11,568 bases of DNA from Evtepia sp. (GTDB lineage: Bacteria > Bacillota > Clostridia > Oscillospirales > Oscillospiraceae). The position numbers were made by a program, and so were the translations under genes. Of the stretch, positions 1 through 9,228 are shown piece after piece. The stretch is from contig JAQSXW010000013.1 of the NCBI GenBank assembly GCA_029256465.1, positions 1 through 11,568 on the forward strand. The letters run 5' to 3'. The notes under the pieces are model-generated. The model searched no databases and had not been told where the DNA came from. It saw only the letters and a list, made by a program, of their open reading frames with translations. Each line of letters starts with the position of its first letter. The stretch's first letter is position 1.

Positions 1-1495
1 CAAACACTCGGGATTGCTCTGATTTCGGAACTCCGATTCCAGTATCGGATACCTTCAGAATGATATCTCCCTCGTTTTGTATGGTAATGGTAGCGCTCCC
101 ACCATTTCGGTTATATTTAATTGCATTGTCAAGCAGGTTATAAAGCATTTCTTCCAAAACGGATGGGATTCCCAAGATTTCTGCTGATTCACCAGAAACG
201 GAGACAGTAATACCAAACTCAGTAGCTTTCGCTTTTAGCCTAGAGACGACTTCCCTAGACAGGGTAAGCAGATTGACCAGCTCTTTTGGAGGGGGCGTGC
301 TTTCCTCAAGCTTGGAAAGGAACATGAGATCTTGAACCAAAGCAATGAGCCGTTTAGCTTCCTGATAGATGCTTTGTGAAAACTCGGGGATATCCTCGGG
401 CTTTGCCACCCCATTCATCATGATTTCTGCATAACCGGAAATTGCAGTAAGGGGGGTTTTTAGTTCATGCGATACATTGGCGGTAAATTCCCGACGAAGC
501 TTTTCACGTTCCTGCTTTTCCGTGACATCCATCAGAATGACAATGATTCCCTGCAAGGTATTCGCACTTGTGACCGGACTGACATATAGTTGGCATTGCC
601 GCCCGGCAATTTCAATAATTCGCTCCAAGGACAATCCTTGTGATGCGGATTGGATCGCCTCGCGGAATTGGTTGCTTCGGTTTAGTGAGAGAATATTGAC
701 ACCGACCGGATGCATTGCGTGGGTATTAAGCAGTTTCATTGCACTTTTGTTGTAGGACAAGACGGTTCCATCACCGTCTAAAACTAATAAACCCTCATTC
801 ATATTCTCAGTGACAGTACTGAATTCTGCTCGCTGCCTGTTTAGTTCCTCTATTTGCAGTTTGATTTGATTGCGTTGGTTCTTTATTCTCGTTAGCAAAG
901 GGACGATTTCGTCATACACCACACTATGTTCTGGATTGTCCAGATCAATGTTATTGATGGGACGTACAATTTTGCGTGTGGCCAAGGAGGCAATGGCAGC
1001 GGCGAGTAGGAAGGCAATGATTGCAATCAAGACTACCAACCAAAAGAGCTGATCATAAGTTGCAATGACACTTTCCGTCGCACTGGCCAACCGTAACACG
1101 GAGCCATCGCCTAGGAGAATGGCATAATAGTAGGTTTGCTCGCGCAACGTATCAGAATAACGGGTGCTTTCTCCAACGCCAGAGGAGAGAGCAGCCTGTA
1201 CTTCAGGTCGGTTCCGATGATTATCCATTTGAGCAGGATCAGTCGAACTGTCATAAAACACCGTGCCATCCGGAGCGATGATCGTTAGCCTGTGTCCCTG
1301 ATGCACCTCAATTTGTGATAGATAGTCTGTCCCGAAATGCTCGATGCCAGGTCGAAGGTAGGTTGCCTCGAGTGCGATTTCCTGCTTAATGGTATGAAAA
1401 AAGTGATTATAGGTAGTAATGGTAATCACAATAGAAGTGAGAATAACGGAAATCAATGCAAGCAGCATCGAAAAGAGAAATATTTTGCGCTTCAT
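1..1495 (-). CDS. phoR: Phosphate-regulon sensor histidine kinase PhoR (partial, C-terminus off window)
   Basis: Membrane sensor kinase that autophosphorylates under phosphate limitation and passes the phosphate to the response regulator encoded just upstream. I translated the open frame from the ATG at 1495; it stays open to base 1, giving 498 residues with the rest of the ATPase domain missing. Visible order: a transmembrane segment at about 7-27, an extracytoplasmic domain at about 28-150, a second transmembrane segment at about 151-173, a PAS-like domain at about 222-325, then the HisKA motif SHELKTP with phospho-acceptor His343. The N box LLDNAIKYN has Asn457, and the G1 box DTGIG starts at Asp484. 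The start overlaps the phoB stop as ATGA, with GGAGG five bases upstream. The kinase class is certain; the PhoR assignment rests on its position after phoU-phoB and on the PAS-containing layout. WalK-like kinases look similar but would not normally sit in a pst operon. Confidence 0.93.
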   Translation of the reverse strand, partial: MKRKIFLFSMLLALISVILTSIVITITTYNHFFHTIKQEIALEATYLRPGIEHFGTDYLSQIEVHQGHRLTIIAPDGTVFYDSSTDPAQMDNHRNRPEVQAALSSGVGESTRYSDTLREQTYYYAILLGDGSVLRLASATESVIATYDQLFWLVVLIAIIAFLLAAAIASLATRKIVRPINNIDLDNPEHSVVYDEIVPLLTRIKNQRNQIKLQIEELNRQRAEFSTVTENMNEGLLVLDGDGTVLSYNKSAMKLLNTHAMHPVGVNILSLNRSNQFREAIQSASQGLSLERIIEIAGRQCQLYVSPVTSANTLQGIIVILMDVTEKQEREKLRREFTANVSHELKTPLTAISGYAEIMMNGVAKPEDIPEFSQSIYQEAKRLIALVQDLMFLSKLEESTPPPKELVNLLTLSREVVSRLKAKATEFGITVSVSGESAEILGIPSVLEEMLYNLLDNAIKYNRNGGSATITIQNEGDIILKVSDTGIGVPKSEQSRVF

Positions 1496-2169
1496 ACGCC
1501 TCCTCCAATTCGATATCCGACCCCACGTACCGTTTCCACAAGATCGGCACATTCTCCAAATTTGGCCCTCAAGGTGCGGATATGGACATCTACCGTTCGG
1601 CTTTCTCCGTCAAAATCATAGCCCCATACACCAGACATAATCTGGTCGCGAGTAAGTACGATTCCCGGGTTTCGAAGCAAGAATACAAGTACATCAAATT
1701 CCTTAGGGGTCAGCGTAACCGGTGAATCAAATACGGTGACAAGATGCCGTGGTATGCTGACAAAAAGCCCACCAAGGCGATATTCATCTGGCTGTTTTTG
1801 CTCCGGTTCAGAACGCCGGAGTAGGCTCTTGACACGTGCAACCAATTCCATCATACCAAAGGGCTTTGGTAGATAGTCATCGGCGCCTAAATCTAATCCC
1901 AGCACCTTATCATATTCAGTGCCTTTTGCCGTCAGCATGATCACAGGCAATTTTGCCGTTGCCGGAGAGGAACGCAGCTTTTTTAGAACATCCAAGCCAT
2001 CCTCGTCTGGAAGCATGATGTCAAGCAATACGAGCTGTGGCACATGCATACGCATGGACTGCCAAAACTCCCCGGCGGTTGCAAAACCTTCCGTCTGTAG
2101 TCCGGAATTATTTAGAGTGTACACCACAAGTTTCCGGATGCTTGGTTCATCCTCCAGAAGGTAGATCAT
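1492..2169 (-). CDS. phoB: Phosphate-regulon response regulator PhoB/PhoP (OmpR family)
   Basis: A 225-residue two-domain transcription factor. The receiver domain (about 1-118) has the acidic pocket E6-D7, phospho-acceptor Asp50 in LLDIMLPD, Thr80 and the conserved Lys102 in LPKPF. The C-terminal winged-helix domain (about 128-222) has the OmpR-type features LTPKEFDVL, the RTVDVHIRTLRAKFG recognition-helix region and the VRGVGYRI wing. Phosphorylated protein should bind the direct repeats upstream of pstS. I chose ATG 2169 because it matches the usual family start (MIYLLEDEPS), has AGAGGG about seven bases upstream and overlaps the phoU stop as ATGA. An in-frame ATG at 2226 would add 19 unrelated residues. 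In Gram-positive literature the orthologue is usually called PhoP. Confidence 0.94.
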   Translation of the reverse strand: MIYLLEDEPSIRKLVVYTLNNSGLQTEGFATAGEFWQSMRMHVPQLVLLDIMLPDEDGLDVLKKLRSSPATAKLPVIMLTAKGTEYDKVLGLDLGADDYLPKPFGMMELVARVKSLLRRSEPEQKQPDEYRLGGLFVSIPRHLVTVFDSPVTLTPKEFDVLVFLLRNPGIVLTRDQIMSGVWGYDFDGESRTVDVHIRTLRAKFGECADLVETVRGVGYRIGGGV

Positions 2170-2828
2170 ACCATGCCCTCTGGACCAGTGATTTCCCTGC
2201 TCCCGGTTAAGGTGTAAAGTACCCATTCTGCAATGTTCGTCGCATGATCACCGATGCGCTCAAAGTATTTGGCAATCATCAAGAGATCCAGACATTCACC
2301 AGCAAGACGGCTATCATTGAGTAGCTGTTGGACTAGTTCCTGTTTGACCTGTGTAAATAAATCGTCGACTACATCATCATAGTCAATCACCGCTTTGGCC
2401 AGCTCTAGATTGTTGTTAACAAAGGAGTCTATGCTTTCAGTCACCATTTTGATGGTGGCACGCGCCATATCGCCAATATGGATATCACTTTTGACTGGGC
2501 TTCCCTTCATAAAGACAGACAGTTCAGCAATGTCTAGACCTTGATCTCCAATACGCTCCATATCAGTAATCATTTTTTGTGCAGCGTTGATGCGACGAAG
2601 GTCACCTGCTACCGGCTGTTCATGCAATATGAGTCGAAAGCACATTTGTTCAATATCATGTTCCAGAAAATTGATCTCATCCTCAATTGCGGCCGTCTTT
2701 TCTAAATAGTTTTCATTGCCATCGAGCAAAGCTTTGGCTGCATTTGCAATGATGTCCTCGCACAAGGCACCCATGTGGATCAGGCTCGTGTGCAATGTTT
2801 CTAGTTGCTTGTCAAATCTAGGTCGCAT
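2166..2828 (-). CDS. phoU: Phosphate signalling regulator PhoU
   Basis: A cytoplasmic 220-residue protein, the normal PhoU length, made of two tandem three-helix PhoU domains (about 15-105 and 118-208). Each carries the metal-binding signature: D89-E91-R92-G94-D95 in the first, and FERIGDHATNIAE with E190 and D194 in the second. In characterised systems PhoU communicates the Pst transporter state to the PhoR kinase and keeps the regulon off when phosphate is plentiful. The ATG directly abuts the pstB stop (TAAATG) and is preceded by GGGGAGG at about nine bases, so it is translated as part of the pst operon. Its stop overlaps the phoB start. Confidence 0.96.
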   Translation of the reverse strand: MRPRFDKQLETLHTSLIHMGALCEDIIANAAKALLDGNENYLEKTAAIEDEINFLEHDIEQMCFRLILHEQPVAGDLRRINAAQKMITDMERIGDQGLDIAELSVFMKGSPVKSDIHIGDMARATIKMVTESIDSFVNNNLELAKAVIDYDDVVDDLFTQVKQELVQQLLNDSRLAGECLDLLMIAKYFERIGDHATNIAEWVLYTLTGSREITGPEGMV

Positions 2829-3578
2829 TTAACCAAACCTCCCCGTAATATAATCCTCGGTTCGCTTATCTTTGGGCATGGAGAAAATCCGATCAGTTGC
2901 ATCAAACTCGACCAATTCTCCTAAAAGGAAATAGGCGGTCTTGTCGGAGATCCGGGCGGCTTGTTGCATGTTATGAGTTACAATAACAATAGTATACTTC
3001 ATCTTCAGCTCACTGACAAGATCCTCAATTTTTAATGTAGAAATCGGATCGAGAGCTGATGTTGGTTCATCCATCAAGAGAATCTCGGGTTCTACAGCGA
3101 GTGCACGAGCGATGCAAATACGCTGCTGTTGTCCACCTGAAAGACCGAGGGCACTTTTTTTCAGGCGATCTTTTGTTTCCTCCCAAATGGCTGCTGACCG
3201 CAAAGAGGCTTCCACAATTTCGTCCAGTTTAACTTTGGAACGGATTCCATGCGTGCGAGGGCCATAGGCAATGTTGTCGTAAATACTCATAGGGAAGGGG
3301 TTTGGCTTTTGAAATACCATTCCCACACGTTTTCTAAGCAAATTGATATCCATGTCACCATAAATATCTTGGCCATCCAGTGTGATAGTACCTTTGATCT
3401 TACAACCCTCGACGAGATCGTTCATACGGTTTAAGGTTTTCAGAAAGGTAGATTTTCCACACCCAGACGGTCCGATAAAAGCAGTGACATCATTTTGATG
3501 AATTGACATGTTGATGTTTTTCAGAGCCTGAAAACTATCATAGTAAAGGTCTAAATTTTGAACGTTAATTTTGTCCAT
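2829..3578 (-). CDS. pstB: Phosphate ABC transporter ATP-binding protein PstB
   Basis: The ATPase subunit that powers phosphate import through PstC/PstA; 249 residues, the usual length. Visible motifs: Walker [10 protein letters not shown] at 36-44, Q-loop Gln90 in [12 protein letters not shown] signature LSGGQQQR at 146-153, Walker B ILLMDEP ending at 172 with catalytic Glu171, D-loop ALD at 175-177, and H-loop His202. The [11 protein letters not shown] stretch after the Q-loop is typical of PstB. I chose ATG 3578 because AGGAGG lies five bases upstream and the protein then begins like other PstBs (MDKINVQNL). The frame is open further upstream to 3746, but those residues are the antisense-frame reading of pstA. 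The first 14 bases overlap the end of pstA, whose Ser-Gly-Gly codons double as the ribosome binding site. Confidence 0.97.
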
Positions 3579-4407
3579 GATTTCCTCCTGACATCCGTTT
3601 CGCCAGCCACCCGGAGCAGGCATTGATGATGAGCACCAAAACAAGTAGCACGACTGCAGTTGCATAGGCCTGATTAACATGAAGTCCTTCGCTGGATAGG
3701 TTGTACATGTGCACCGATAAGGTGCGGGTTGAGTCCAGTAAACCACCTGGAATCTTCGCGAGCGTACCGGCAGTAAAGATCAGTGCAGCCGTTTCGCCAA
3801 CGATTCGTCCCACAGCGAGGATGATACCGGCAAGAATGCCTGGAATTGCCGCAGGAAGTACAATAGATATCACGGTGCGCAAGCGCCCGGCACCCAGTCC
3901 AAAGCTACCTTCTCGGTAAGCATCTGGAACAGAAAGGAGTGCTTCTTCCGTGGTACGCATGATGAGTGGCAGAATCATTATGGTTAAGGTGCAAGTGCCG
4001 GAGATCAGTGAAACCCCCCATTGTAGCGCAACAACAAAAAAGATAAACCCGAAAAGACCATAGACAATAGAGGGGATTCCGGCCAGAACCTCAGCTGCCA
4101 TTCTGATGTACTTGACCAAACGGTTGCCGCGCCGTGCATATTCGCACAGATAAACTGCGGAGAAAATGCCAATTGGGCCCGCGATCAAAAGGGAAAGGAT
4201 CGTCATGATCATGGTATTGATGAAGGCTGGCACACACGACACGTTCTCGCTTGTATAGTTCCAAGCGAAGAGAGATGGCTTTAAGTGGGGGACACCTTTG
4301 ATCAGGATATACCCAACAAGGCACAGAATTACCAAGATTGTCAATGCGGCGGAGGCCTTAACCAAGAAATTCAATAGGGTAGAAAGTGTGTCTTTTCTTT
4401 TCTTCAT
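3565..4407 (-). CDS. pstA: Phosphate ABC transporter permease PstA
   Basis: One of the two membrane subunits forming the phosphate channel; 280 residues with about six hydrophobic segments, the first at about 18-38. The PstA/PstC-specific [11 protein letters not shown] motif is at 110-120. The cytoplasmic EAA-type coupling loop that contacts PstB is at about 155-190 ([13 protein letters not shown] followed by LGAGRLRTV). The start ATG overlaps the pstC stop as ATGA, with a GGGGGA ribosome binding site upstream. It is assigned as PstA rather than PstC because it is second in the permease pair and has the short N-terminal cytoplasmic tail and PstA-like sequence. Confidence 0.95.
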
Positions 4408-5252
4408 GCCAGTTTCCCCCGTTTCAAAAGGGATAAGATTACATTGATCAGCAGAATGAACACGAACAGCACCACAGCCGTGGCAATCAGTGCCTCTCGG
4501 TGGAGGTCTGCAGCATAACCCATTTCCAGGACAATATTGGCCGTCAGGGTACGCACCCCACTCGTTATGCTTTCGGGGATCACCGCTTGGTTACCAGCCA
4601 CCATAATGACCGCCATGGTTTCTCCGATTGCTCGTCCAATTCCCAGAACAGTTGCTGCAAAAATACCGGATTTGGCTGCAGGTAAGACGGCAAAGAAGAC
4701 ACTTCTTTCATGGCTTGCGCCAAGCGCCAGCGAACCTTCATAGTAGCTGTTCGGCACAGCACGTATCGCGGATTCAGAAACAGTGATGATGGTTGGTAAA
4801 ATCATAATACCCAACAAAATAGAAGTAGTTAAAATGCTCTTGCCTCCACCTGTCAGGATTCGTATTAGCGGTACCAGGACGACCAAGCCGAAAAAACCAT
4901 AAATAATGGAGGGTATACCCGCCATGAGGGATACGGCAGGACGGAGCACCCGATTCATCCGCTTGGAGCTGAAGCGCGCAATAAATACTGCTGTGAGGAC
5001 CCCCAACGGAACTCCAATGAGAATAGCCCCAGCTGTGACATAGAGACTACCCAAAATCATCGGCGCGATGCCAAAGATGTTGTTGCCTGGTTTCCACTTT
5101 GTCCCGAGCAAAAACTTAAGCGGACCAATTTCACCGATCGCTGGTAATCCGTTCGCAAACAGGAACAAGCAAATTAGCAGTACACAGAGAATGGATACGC
5201 AGGCACAAAGTAGAAAAAGATATTTCATAATAGATTCTTTGATGTGATTCAT
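4404..5252 (-). CDS. pstC: Phosphate ABC transporter permease PstC
   Basis: The partner permease of PstA; 282 residues. A strong N-terminal membrane segment lies at about 10-34. The region around 45-60 (FLLGTKWKP) is characteristic of PstC, followed by FGIAPMILGSL starting a second segment. The conserved GIPSIIYGFFG motif is at 112-122 and the EAA loop at about 160-195 (ESAIRAVPNSYYEG, then LGAS). I chose ATG 5252 because GGGAG sits about six bases upstream. An in-frame upstream ATG at 5312 would add 20 residues spanning the terminator-like hairpin in the gap and lacks family support. Confidence 0.95.
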   Translation of the reverse strand: MNHIKESIMKYLFLLCACVSILCVLLICLFLFANGLPAIGEIGPLKFLLGTKWKPGNNIFGIAPMILGSLYVTAGAILIGVPLGVLTAVFIARFSSKRMNRVLRPAVSLMAGIPSIIYGFFGLVVLVPLIRILTGGGKSILTTSILLGIMILPTIITVSESAIRAVPNSYYEGSLALGASHERSVFFAVLPAAKSGIFAATVLGIGRAIGETMAVIMVAGNQAVIPESITSGVRTLTANIVLEMGYAADLHREALIATAVVLFVFILLINVILSLLKRGKLA

Positions 5253-5324: not shown

Positions 5325-6194
5325 TTAGGAAAGCTCTGACCAGTCTTTCACGCTGCGGGTAAAAACTTGCTTGACCTGTTCTTTGCTGAGATTATTCAGC
5401 GGATTTTCGTTGTTGACAACGACCACAATGCCATCCAGCGCAATGACGGTGGAGACAAGCCCTTTCTCCAATTCGCTGTCTTTGAGTGAGCGGGAGGCCA
5501 TGCCAATGTCGCAAATTCCTTCGATGGCCGAGTTCATGCCAGTCGTTGAATCACTTTGCTGGATCTCGATTTTGGCAGCAGGATTGATTGCCTCATAGCT
5601 TTCCTTCAATGCTTCCATGACGGGAGAGACCGAGGAAGATCCTGCCACCACCACTTTGCCCGCCGCTTTGGTTCCGTGATAGGATGCCGTAATGTCCATG
5701 GGGATATACCCTTTGCTTTCGACGACTTTCTGGCCTTGGGTGCTCACAATAAAGGAGATAAAGTCCTGCGAGGTTGGACTCAGTTCGCCTTTGGTTGCAA
5801 TATTAAAGGGGCGTGAACTGGTATAGCTGCCATCCTTAATGCTTTCTACACTGGGAGCGACACCATCAATGCTGAGAGCCTTCACGCTATCATTCAGTGA
5901 TCCCAAAGAAATGTAGCCGATTGCGGATTTGTCTCCCGCAACGGATGTCAAAATCACTGAGGTATTGTTTGTGATCTCAGCACGTTCATAGGTGGTGTCT
6001 ATTTTATTGCCGTTATCATCTTTCTCTTCCAGTTCAAACAGCTGGATAAAAGCGCCGCGTGTGCCGGAGCCATCTTCACGAGAGACCACAGTAATTTGGT
6101 TGTTTTTCCCCTCTGACGAGTTTCCAGATTTGCAACCTGCTACAGTAAGAAGCAGGAGAGAAACCATCATCACAAAGATGAGGGCTTTTTTCAT
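5325..6194 (-). CDS. pstS: Phosphate ABC transporter substrate-binding lipoprotein PstS, circularly permuted
   Basis: Extracellular lipoprotein that captures phosphate and delivers it to PstCA; 289 residues. The signal peptide has a hydrophobic core at 4-19 and lipobox VAGC with lipidated Cys21. The segment order is unusual. The phosphate-binding motif SREDGSGTRGAF (R39, D41, S43, G44, T45), normally mid-protein, comes right after the lipid anchor. It is followed by the GYISLGSLNDSVKAL and RPFN blocks. The canonical N-terminal strand and loop, VVVAGSSSVSPVM, appears only at about 181-193, with DIGMASR at 229-235. The protein stops at VFTRSVKDWSELS, which in ordinary PstS leads directly into the SREDGSGT motif. 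All expected blocks are present, so it is probably functional. The start has GGAGG seven bases upstream. It is the first gene of the operon, downstream of a Pho box. Confidence 0.94.
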   Translation of the reverse strand: MKKALIFVMMVSLLLLTVAGCKSGNSSEGKNNQITVVSREDGSGTRGAFIQLFELEEKDDNGNKIDTTYERAEITNNTSVILTSVAGDKSAIGYISLGSLNDSVKALSIDGVAPSVESIKDGSYTSSRPFNIATKGELSPTSQDFISFIVSTQGQKVVESKGYIPMDITASYHGTKAAGKVVVAGSSSVSPVMEALKESYEAINPAAKIEIQQSDSTTGMNSAIEGICDIGMASRSLKDSELEKGLVSTVIALDGIVVVVNNENPLNNLSKEQVKQVFTRSVKDWSELS

Positions 6195-6251: not shown

Positions 6252-6292
6252 CGTTAAATCTAAAATCTTGGGAATGTTAAATTTATGTTAAA
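6252..6292 (-). promoter_or_regulatory. Pho box: PhoB/PhoP binding repeats upstream of pstS
   Basis: Two identical TTTAACA heptamers on the minus strand (plus-strand TGTTAAA at 6275-6281 and 6286-6292) are spaced exactly 11 bp apart. A third close copy, TTTAACG, is at 6252-6258, 23 bp from the nearest. The 11-bp period and the TT-A-ACA core match the known layout of PhoB and Gram-positive PhoP binding sites. Placement just upstream of pstS, in an operon encoding the regulator itself, supports autoregulation. The repeats are seen directly; binding is inferred. Confidence 0.8.
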
Positions 6293-6374: not shown

Positions 6375-6464
6375 GATAAGGGAGTAGTCGGCGCTTCGGC
6401 GTGGTGAAGCCAACATCACTGGAACCTTGTGTTCTTGGTTTTATCTGAAATGACAAGACTTATC
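6375..6464 (+). promoter_or_regulatory. yybP-ykoY family Mn2+ riboswitch aptamer
   Basis: Helix P1 is closed by GATAAG (6375-6380) with CTTATC (6459-6464). Immediately inside the 5' arm is the family hallmark GGAGTAG, here preceded by G (6380-6387), and just before the 3' arm is the hallmark ACAAGAC (6453-6459). Between them are a small hairpin capped by a cUUCGg tetraloop (6394-6399), the GCCAACATCA segment typical of the docking loop (6409-6418), and a short stem formed by AACC and GGTT around 6423-6440. In the characterised family, Mn2+ binding stabilises P1 and turns expression on, and P-type ATPases are among the known downstream genes. Assignment is from recognised motifs, not a covariance-model search. 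Confidence 0.87.
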
Positions 6465-6490
6465 TGCCGCTGGCAGAGGAGTCTTTTTTT
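6455..6490 (+). terminator. Riboswitch intrinsic terminator T1, mutually exclusive with P1
   Basis: The 5' arm 6455-6468 (AAGACTTATCTGCC) pairs with 6472-6485 around loop GCT, with one A-G mismatch and one G-U pair, followed by a T run to 6490 and a second T run at 6492-6498. Bases 6459-6464 of this stem are the 3' arm of riboswitch helix P1, so only one of the two can form. This gives the expected logic: no ligand, terminate; ligand, read through into the ATPase gene. Confidence 0.88.
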
Positions 6491-6570: not shown

Positions 6571-9228
6571 ATGACAATGCATGGTTTGACGGATGATCAA
6601 GTAGAGAAGTCTAGAAAGCAGTACGGTAGTAATCGGATGACAGAACAGAAACGGGAAGGATTTTTAAAAAGACTTCTCGGAAATTTCAAGGATCCCATGA
6701 TCCGTATCCTATGTGTGGCCTTGGGTATCAACTTCTTGTTTGCCCTTCTAGGGGAAACCGCGTGGTATGAGGCGTTGGGGATTGCTGTGGCCGTTTTGCT
6801 TGCGGTTTTTGTGTCTACAGTCTCCGAGCATCGTAACGAGCATGCCTTTCAAAAATTACAGGAAGAAGCCTCGAAGATACTTTGTAAGGTTTATCGAAAC
6901 AATACTCTGGTGGAGCTGCCGATTGACGAAATCGTCGTGGACGACTGGGTTCTATTACAATTAGGCGATAAGATACCCGCTGACGGCATCATGAGACATG
7001 GGGTCATTCAGGTCGACCAGTCCGCCTTGAATGGAGAGGCAGAAGAAGCGGAAAAGATTGCACTTCCCGATGGAGACCAAGAGCTGAAAGATTCGTTAGA
7101 CTTTCTGGATCCTTTCCAAGTGTTTCGTGGATCCGTGGTCTGTGGCGGAAACGGTGTGATGCAGGTGACCACAGTGGGGGATACCTCCATCTATGGAAAG
7201 CTAGCCGGAGAATTACAGTTGGAGGAGCGAGATTCTCCGCTGAAGGTTAAGCTCAAAGACTTGGCGAAAACAATTAGCCGCTTTGGATATCTAGGAGGAA
7301 TCATCATTGCTTTGGCTTTCCTCTTCCAGCAGGTTGTTGTACAGAACGGTTTTGATCTTACAGTAATTTCGGCTTACTGTAGTAACGGAATCACCTTGAT
7401 GGCAGACCTTCTAGAGGCGGTGATGCTAGCAGTAATTATCATCGTTATGGCAGTACCGGAGGGATTGCCGCTGATGATCGCCATCGTTTCAGCACAGAAC
7501 ATGGGAAAAATGCTTAGAGATCAGGTCTTGGTGCGTAAGGTGACGGGTATCGAGACTGCCGGGAGCATAAATCTGTTACTAAGTGATAAAACAGGGACCA
7601 TCACGAAGGGTCAATTGGAGACAGTTGCCTTTCTGGACGGAGCCGGACAGAGCTACGCTTCTATGGAACAAATAGCACTGAAACTATCACGTTTACTCAC
7701 CTTGAGTGTAGTTTATAATAACAGTGCTGTACGGAGTAAGCAGCCAGATGGAACGCAAAGCTTGATTGGTGGAAACGCTACAGAACGAGCAATGCTGGAA
7801 TTTGTGGGGCCTGTCACAGAAGAGGCAGCCACGGTGCTCACTCGTGTGCCATTTAGCAGTGCAAATAAATACTCTCTTGTTACCATATCGACAGGAAAGC
7901 ATGCGATGACTCTAGTCAAAGGTGCGCCTGAGAAGCTACTCTCCTACTGTAGTAGCTTCTATACCGGTGAAGGTGAGACAAAACCACTTAGTCAGGGGCA
8001 GCTCGAAAAGTTGGAAGCACAAATCGATGACTTAGCGCATCGAGCAATCCGCGTATTGGTGCTCGCCACTTCAGACGAGGAACGAGGCGAAGATAGTCTG
8101 ACTGAAGGCGGTTGGACCTTGGTTGGAATCGTGGGAATTCGGGATGAGGTGCGGCCAGAGGCAGTCGAGGCAATTGCACAAGTACAACAGGCAGGTATTC
8201 AAGTGGTCATGATTACGGGAGACCGCAAGGATACAGCCACTGCGATTGCCAAGGAAGCAGGAATTCTATACAAGGAGACGGATTTGATTTACACCTCAGA
8301 CGAGCTCTCCCAATTGTCCGATGAGGCCTTAAAGGAGAAACTGCCAGAAATTCGTGTGATCGCCCGTGCCTTACCAAGTGATAAGAGTCGATTGGTACGC
8401 TTGGCACAGGAACAAAACTTGGTGGTAGGTATGACCGGCGATGGCGTCAACGATGCCCCTGCCTTGAAGCGGGCAGATGTAGGTTTTGCCATGGGAAGCG
8501 GGACAGAAGTCGCGAAAGAAGCGGGAGATATCGTCATCCTGAACGACAACTTCCAATCAGTCGCAAAGGCCATTCTCTATGGAAGAACTATTTTTAATAG
8601 CATCCGTAAGTTTATTGTCTTCCAGTTGACGATTAACGTATCTGCCGTGCTCATATCCTTGATAGCACCCCTCCTGGGAATGGAAAGTCCTTTGACTATC
8701 ACACAAATTTTGTGGGTCAATCTAGTGATGGATACCTTGGCTGCGATGGCCTTTGGCGGCGAGCCAACCTTGGATCGCTATATGAAGGAGAAGCCTCGCC
8801 GTCGAGATGAGTCAATTTTGAGTACCAACATGAAGAGTGCCATCTTGACAGGAGCTCTTTGGACCTTAGCGGTGAGCCTTTGCCTCCTCTTGTCCCCCTA
8901 TGCGGTGCAGATCTTCCGAGGTGCTACTGATGATGTGTATCATATGACCGGATTCTTTACCTTCTTTATCTTCACTGCGATCTTTAATGCGTTCAACGCC
9001 AGAAGCGAGGGGAGAAATCTACTGGATCATTTACATAAAAATCAAGGATTCTTGAAGATAATGGGGATGATTGTAGTCATACAGGTACTGCTCACCCAGA
9101 TGGGTGGAGCAATCTTTCGCTGCCATGGTTTGGACAGCAAGGAATGGCTCTTTGTCCTCGTCTTGGCAGTTCTGATCATTCCGATTGACCTTCTACGGAA
9201 AACCATAATGGTAAAAGGCGAGAACTAA
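6571..9228 (+). CDS. P2B (PMCA-type) cation-transporting P-type ATPase, probable Mn2+/Ca2+ exporter
   Basis: An 885-residue membrane pump. It shows an N-terminal cation-ATPase domain, TM1-2 at about 45-85, an actuator domain whose usual TGES is NGEA here (154-157, catalytic Glu156 kept), and TM3-4 with PEGLP at 296-300. Phosphorylation site DKTGT starts at Asp339, the nucleotide domain has KGAPE, the hinge motif TGDGVNDAP spans 622-630, and TM5-10 fill about 680-880. Site II metal ligands are present (Glu297, Asn717, Asp721 in NLVMDT). The site I glutamate of SERCA TM5 is Ala692 (NVSA), and TM6 has Met720, as in plasma-membrane Ca2+ pumps, implying one ion per ATP. The Mn2+ riboswitch upstream points to manganese export; Ca2+ is the alternative. 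Start ATG 6571 has TAGGAG (6556-6561) nine bases upstream. Another in-frame ATG lies at 6577. Confidence 0.93.
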   Translation: MTMHGLTDDQVEKSRKQYGSNRMTEQKREGFLKRLLGNFKDPMIRILCVALGINFLFALLGETAWYEALGIAVAVLLAVFVSTVSEHRNEHAFQKLQEEASKILCKVYRNNTLVELPIDEIVVDDWVLLQLGDKIPADGIMRHGVIQVDQSALNGEAEEAEKIALPDGDQELKDSLDFLDPFQVFRGSVVCGGNGVMQVTTVGDTSIYGKLAGELQLEERDSPLKVKLKDLAKTISRFGYLGGIIIALAFLFQQVVVQNGFDLTVISAYCSNGITLMADLLEAVMLAVIIIVMAVPEGLPLMIAIVSAQNMGKMLRDQVLVRKVTGIETAGSINLLLSDKTGTITKGQLETVAFLDGAGQSYASMEQIALKLSRLLTLSVVYNNSAVRSKQPDGTQSLIGGNATERAMLEFVGPVTEEAATVLTRVPFSSANKYSLVTISTGKHAMTLVKGAPEKLLSYCSSFYTGEGETKPLSQGQLEKLEAQIDDLAHRAIRVLVLATSDEERGEDSLTEGGWTLVGIVGIRDEVRPEAVEAIAQVQQAGIQVVMITGDRKDTATAIAKEAGILYKETDLIYTSDELSQLSDEALKEKLPEIRVIARALPSDKSRLVRLAQEQNLVVGMTGDGVNDAPALKRADVGFAMGSGTEVAKEAGDIVILNDNFQSVAKAILYGRTIFNSIRKFIVFQLTINVSAVLISLIAPLLGMESPLTITQILWVNLVMDTLAAMAFGGEPTLDRYMKEKPRRRDESILSTNMKSAILTGALWTLAVSLCLLLSPYAVQIFRGATDDVYHMTGFFTFFIFTAIFNAFNARSEGRNLLDHLHKNQGFLKIMGMIVVIQVLLTQMGGAIFRCHGLDSKEWLFVLVLAVLIIPIDLLRKTIMVKGEN

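Follow-up and report, generated by a model that had tools for sequence, protein, structure and literature searches.

The window, an 11,568-nucleotide stretch of an Evtepia sp. contig, carries a phosphate uptake operon on its minus strand. Its leading gene, pstS (5325..6194), is an intact open ORF of 289 aa, and the product is almost certainly a circularly permuted version of the phosphate-binding lipoprotein, as the preliminary description of this DNA had proposed. Behind it on the same strand lie pstC (4404..5252, in an ORF open from 5312 with a likely ATG start at 5252), pstA (3565..4407), pstB (2829..3578, in an ORF open from 3746 with a likely start at 3578) and phoU (2166..2828), all of which score over the cut-offs of their models (TIGR02138, 289 bits; TIGR00974, 278 bits; TIGR00972, 417 bits; TIGR02135, 196 bits). 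A two-component pair follows, also on the minus strand. The PhoB/PhoP-type response regulator (1492..2169, ORF from 2226) matches TIGR02154 best, at 212 bits against a cut-off of 296, and the PhoR/PnpS-type sensor kinase (2..1495), which runs off the window, matches NF046044 best, at 212 bits against a cut-off of 400. Heading pstSCAB-phoU and this pair, the permuted gene is a member of a pst operon.

A direct repeat resembling a Pho box, TTAACA-N5-TTAACA, lies at 6275..6291 on the minus strand as an exact match 80 bases before the pstS start codon, where 0.03 occurrences at one mismatch or fewer are expected in the window; the repeat is presumably a PhoP box. Within 250 bases upstream, a repeat at one mismatch or fewer precedes pstS in 24/92 permuted and 6/25 canonical loci, and in 45/92 and 12/25, respectively, no more than 5 of 100 shuffles do as well as the best match. 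By this weak scan of upstream sequence, phosphate control of the permuted operon looks ordinary. The neighboring gene, divergent from pstS on the plus strand (6571-9228), encodes a PMCA-type calcium P-type ATPase (TIGR01517, over cut-off). Its leader (6375-6490, plus strand) resembles the full length of the Rfam model SSRC10 (Streptococcus sRNA 10) with 28.4 bits, short of the gathering score of 56, and is possibly a cation-responsive leader.

The permuted chain is best described by the two halves of canonical mature PstS, the N-terminal half A and the C-terminal half B, which here stand in the order signal peptide and cysteine, half B, linker, half A (all on the minus strand). The signal peptide (residues 1-21; 6132..6194), read by eye, ends in a lipobox cysteine, Cys21, that is invariant among 54 aligned permuted proteins and, on sequence alone, marks the protein as a lipoprotein. 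Half B (residues 32-164; 5703..6101) corresponds to TIGR02136 positions 160-295 and scores 232 bits against a half-profile that counts the window protein among its rows. It contains SREDGSGTR (residues 38-46; 6057..6083), in which R39, G42, S43, G44 and T45 are invariant across the 54 rows. A linker (residues 165-178; 5661..5702) joins the old C- and N-termini and leads into half A (residues 179-288; 5331..5660; half-profile 194 bits; TIGR02136 positions 30-157), whose first loop, AGSSS (residues 184-188; 5631..5645), is invariant from G185 to S188. Half A also holds SDSTTG at 214-219, DIGMASR at 229-235 (5490..5510), placed by the alignment and by BLASTP comparison, and W285. By analogy with E. 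coli PstS, SREDGSGTR is taken to be the phosphate-binding loop of half B, and AGSSS is assumed to be the first ligand loop of half A. Profiles and the 54-row alignment thus find both halves and both predicted ligand loops in one chain, for which an AlphaFold2 model reaches a mean pLDDT of 85. The preliminary description had anticipated this anatomy closely, placing C21, SREDGSGTR, AGSSS, DIGMASR and W285 where they are found, setting the linker at residues 166-180 and arguing that the phosphate-contacting residues are kept, as the conservation of both loops suggests.

Comparison with collinear family members supports the swapped order. TIGR02136 and PF12849 each hit the window protein as two stretches in exchanged order. 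The PF12849 (PBP_like_2) score, 121.1 bits over two stretches, exceeds the gathering cut-off of 27 and places the protein in that family, and against TIGR02136 the whole protein reaches 186.2 of the 206.6 bits that the curated cut-off demands, which leaves it outside curated PstS. In BLASTP comparisons with 68 canonical PstS ORFs, 65 align as two swapped blocks. The remaining three have no usable second block: L036 and L037 align by the A block alone, and L049 adds to its A block a weak alignment between the two signal-peptide regions, hence its scripted label of "collinear". No collinear diagonal spanning both halves was seen against any of the 68, and the swapped blocks rule out a collinear PstS with misread motifs. 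PDB chains of canonical PstS, such as 4q8r and 1twy, likewise match in two swapped stretches. Among 23 PDB sequences hit by profile, only 4H1X is collinear with the window protein over its full length (residues 26-288 to 3-264, 5.1e-58).

The position of the cut is nearly constant. Canonical ORFs have, in this order, a W-S-E-V region, a turn of four residues (usually GGxD) and a strand leading into SREDGSGTR; by profile, the turn has four residues in 26/27 canonical ORFs and 38 in the other (L211). Permuted proteins end right after W-S-E and, behind the signal peptide and a linker, begin just before the strand that leads into SREDGSGTR, so that the new ends fall at the junction named in the preliminary description. 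The C-terminus lies within four residues of the profile end in 351/353 permuted proteins. The linker between the old ends measures 14 or 15 residues in 91/94 permuted ORFs and 14-16 residues in 352/353 permuted proteins. A simple pattern recognizes a lipobox in 81/94 permuted and 27/27 canonical ORFs.

Permuted PstS is widespread, with many gut bacteria and streptococci among its carriers. Half-profiles derived from alignment A1 of 54 permuted homologues and run on 172 fetched loci identify 105 B-A ORFs (in which the window's own gene is counted three times, as L001, L002 and L143), 68 A-B ORFs and two A-B-A-B ORFs. Typing of the 359 best-listed homologues yields 353 B-A, four B-A-B and two A-B-A proteins; these lists hold the best matches to permuted queries and therefore show abundance, not a majority over the canonical form. 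With the shared cut, the near-constant linker and the single clade discussed below, the counts bear out the expectation of a stable and widespread form. The permuted gene is found in 12 of 60 near genomes, the window's included (G000, G005, G014, G016, G022, G023, G024, G030, G037, G041, G048 and G052), and B-A order was confirmed in all 11 besides the window's. In six genomes besides the window's (G005, G016, G022, G024, G030 and G048), it is all that the PstS model matches, and G023 holds both permuted and canonical forms. Within the window's genus, three of 16 genomes carry the permuted gene (the other two being G005 and G014), nine carry the canonical gene (truncated by a contig end in G001) and four have no match.

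Beyond close relatives, at least 18 of 398 genomes of the phylum, the window's included, carry the permuted gene, a lower bound because at most six candidates were scored per genome. The 80 loci retained from 518 relatives include Thermoclostridium (T. caenicola DSM 19027), Roseburia and Anaerotignum. Records from beyond Bacillota are among them too, under the titles Desulfovibrionaceae, Eggerthellaceae, Adlercreutzia and Synergistaceae, and several of these are metagenome bins. Streptococcus, Granulicatella, Trichococcus and Carnobacterium also contribute permuted proteins among the matches listed. Two plasmids, from Treponema saccharophilum and Monoglobus pectinilyticus (L213 and L214), bear permuted pstSCAB-phoU operons. 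A second permuted gene is present at two further loci, in tandem beside the first in L063 (319-2327, an Anaerotignum record) and as a very divergent upstream copy in L071 (496-1425, a Lachnospiraceae record).

The permuted gene keeps constant company. In a gene-order reading that recognized pst and phoU genes only, a same-strand PstC follows next after permuted PstS in 92/92 loci (the window, L063-L142 and L173-L183), at a gap below 300 bases in all 92 if PstC is taken to be 300 residues long, an estimate from frame length. PstA follows PstC in 91/92; the exception, L129, is a short fetched stretch. In a tree of concatenated PstC and PstA that used 43 of 91 permuted operons, the permuted-linked permeases form one clade (support 97), rising to 100/99 under LG+G4 when two long canonical rows (L197 and L187) are left out, and 25 canonical and two A-B-A-B operons fall outside it. 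The comparison of permease and binding-protein phylogenies that had been suggested at the outset thus returns one clade for each. Within the permuted set, the operons of the window, G005 and G014 form a group; six canonical ones from this genus sit in another clade, and G007 forms a long row apart. Since permuted and canonical operons occupy separate PstC+PstA clades, members of the genus differ by the whole operon and not by PstS alone.

One segment of PstA also tracks the permutation. Residues 37-65 of the window's PstA (4213..4299, minus strand), which lie between hydrophobic stretches one and two as judged by eye, carry NVS in place of a canonical G-I motif. Permuted-linked PstA proteins have a segment like Y-T-S-E-N-V-S at this place in 93/93 cases, 91 by pattern and two, L081 (NVT) and L128, by eye. 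The G-I motif is present in 23/25 canonical PstA proteins and in both A-B-A-B ones; the long-branch L187 and L197 failed the pattern. What sets permuted-linked PstA apart in this sample is the change at the G-I motif alone, which may be an adaptation to the permuted partner or may simply reflect common descent. A two-residue deletion in this PstA segment was rejected as a mark of the permutation, as the canonical L201 shares it. No comparable indel appears in PstC of the permuted-linked set in the alignment without L197 and L187, and the plasmids searched yielded no Lactobacillales operon for the PstA comparison.

Phylogenies of PstS itself argue for a single origin, which is very probable. 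In a first FastTree of 160 rows, which kept 53 of 68 canonical sequences after dropping those with a half scoring below 30 bits or shorter than 90 aa, half A and the concatenation each require one state change between orders and half B requires two; later single-half trees with fewer half-B rows require one each, in one run with mixed proteins not counted and four long rows left out. A 90-row tree of concatenated halves comprises 41 of 118 permuted sequences (103 from the 160-row set plus 15 proteins), 45 of the 53 canonical sequences and four tandem rows, and unites the permuted rows with an SH-aLRT of 98. A careful tree of 77 rows, the same set minus 13, unites them at 100/99 (bootstrap/SH-aLRT). 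Because most permuted rows were collected by likeness to the window protein, this single clade is one from which distant or second permutations may be missing.

How the permutation arose is less firmly settled. The preliminary description had favored duplication followed by loss of the outer halves, and this route is plausible and reasonably probable: one old duplication and fusion would have been followed by loss of both outer halves, after which the operon would have been passed on by descent and transfer as one unit. The A-B-A-B state that such a route requires exists today as a single ORF heading a pst operon in two genomes, G342 and G361 (L209 and L210), with stop-to-stop frames of 544 and 531 aa and copies that are 75% and 74% identical within each protein. 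These fusions represent a separate event in a canonical lineage, not sister to the permuted clade, and they establish the viability of the state without making it the ancestor of permuted PstS. The survey of orthologues that had been proposed thus recovers permuted, tandem and canonical forms. It also recovers six mosaics of canonical and permuted PstS in metagenome records, four B-A-B (P0016, P0121, P0126 and P0213) and two A-B-A (P0345 and P0356), each standing for one contig and listed by no source other than "ena". The first B half is identical in P0121 and P0126, which differ in later sequence, and all four B-A-B proteins place their extra B half in one supported group that also contains 14 canonical halves. 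On these grounds, the mosaics were not accepted as evolutionary relics and may be recent joins or assembly chimeras.

The mosaics bear on a different proposal, that permuted PstS fused halves of two different PstS paralogues instead of arising by duplication of one gene. If the records are real, they show that paralogues can join, as the grouping of the extra B halves with canonical halves would also suggest, and the trees give the permuted clade no resolved parent. When 46 canonical or tandem rows are ranked by their distance to the permuted clade, however, half A and half B give similar orders (Spearman 0.76), and a fusion of paralogues is unlikely. That the arrangement reflects misassembly or a frameshift scarcely merits belief: the assembly that holds the window is 54% complete and split into 130 contigs, yet the ORF is open and the B-A order recurs in other genomes (including G005 and G014), in the named strain T. 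caenicola DSM 19027, on a complete plasmid and in the solved chain 4H1X. Duplication and loss in a single ancestor remains the preferred account.

The role of the permuted protein is, with high probability, phosphate uptake, in which it would bind phosphate in a two-lobe cleft as other PstS proteins do and pass it to PstCA. A changed ligand or a mainly sensing role is very improbable; nothing favors it directly, save that G023 has both forms of PstS, and against it stand the conserved ligand loops, the place of the permuted gene at the head of pstSCAB-phoU, the Pho-box-like repeat upstream and the six other genomes in which permuted PstS is the sole match to the PstS model. Gene content, conserved residues and trees together make it highly likely that this is a working phosphate-binding protein derived from one ancient circular permutation, with the entire operon inherited together.

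The two chain ends of a canonical type II binding protein form lobe I, and the middle of the chain forms lobe II. On this topology, the new ends of permuted PstS would lie in lobe II, leaving lobe I continuous and lobe II discontinuous, and the lipid anchor would have moved from lobe I to lobe II. The co-segregation of a permease lineage and a PstA segment with the permutation is the only hint toward altered docking on PstC/PstA. A stronger version, in which PstS re-tethered by lobe II is matched to its own permease and the NVS segment of PstA compensates, such that the permuted protein would be incompatible with canonical PstCA, is doubtful.

The permuted topology is already in the PDB, as S. 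pneumoniae PstS2 (4H1X) is collinear with the window protein. The preliminary description supposed the form to be seldom noted, and no description of a circularly permuted PstS was found in the open-access literature searched; subscription papers could hold one. Two RefSeq plasmid records (L213 and L214) call the permuted protein only a "substrate-binding domain-containing protein", plausibly because the curated TIGR02136 model expects collinear order, and other sources do use phosphate names. A textbook binding protein has a circularly permuted version in clostridia and streptococci, and records from a few other phyla show it as well. With operons of both kinds, the window's genus is a natural setting in which to ask whether docking in type I importers depends on the order of the chain and the position of its anchor, and the A-B-A-B proteins are a present-day form of the kind demanded by duplication-and-loss models of circular permutation.

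Among known systems, canonical PstS of the TIGR02136 family (4q8r, 4gd5, 1twy and 4exl) is homologous to the window protein in both halves and shares its ligand loops, with the halves in the order A-B instead of B-A. The A-B-A-B proteins of G342 and G361 contain a B-A unit in their middle and, like the permuted form, are encoded by the first gene of pstSCAB-phoU; unlike it, they keep both outer halves and belong to a separate lineage. PstS2 and other Lactobacillales homologues are collinear with the window protein and fall in the same clade, where the Lactobacillales B-A proteins, including the source of 4H1X, form their own subclade (support 99) apart from the window protein. Among the matches listed in the Lactobacillales search, B-A proteins have a linker of 15-16 residues in 118/118 cases and an end within three residues in 116/118. 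At an E-value of 0.001, the Pfam and NCBIfam matches of the window protein include no type I sugar-binding family, which sets it apart from proteins of the Tp0684 type. Tp0684 (MglB-2) is the nearest precedent, a circularly permuted type I binding protein for which the authors propose a sub-class "Ic" (PMC4990184). Both proteins represent natural circular permutation in a tethered binding protein of an importer, and Tp0684 differs in its sugar-binding type I fold, its other cut and its fourth lobe crossing (PMC4990184).
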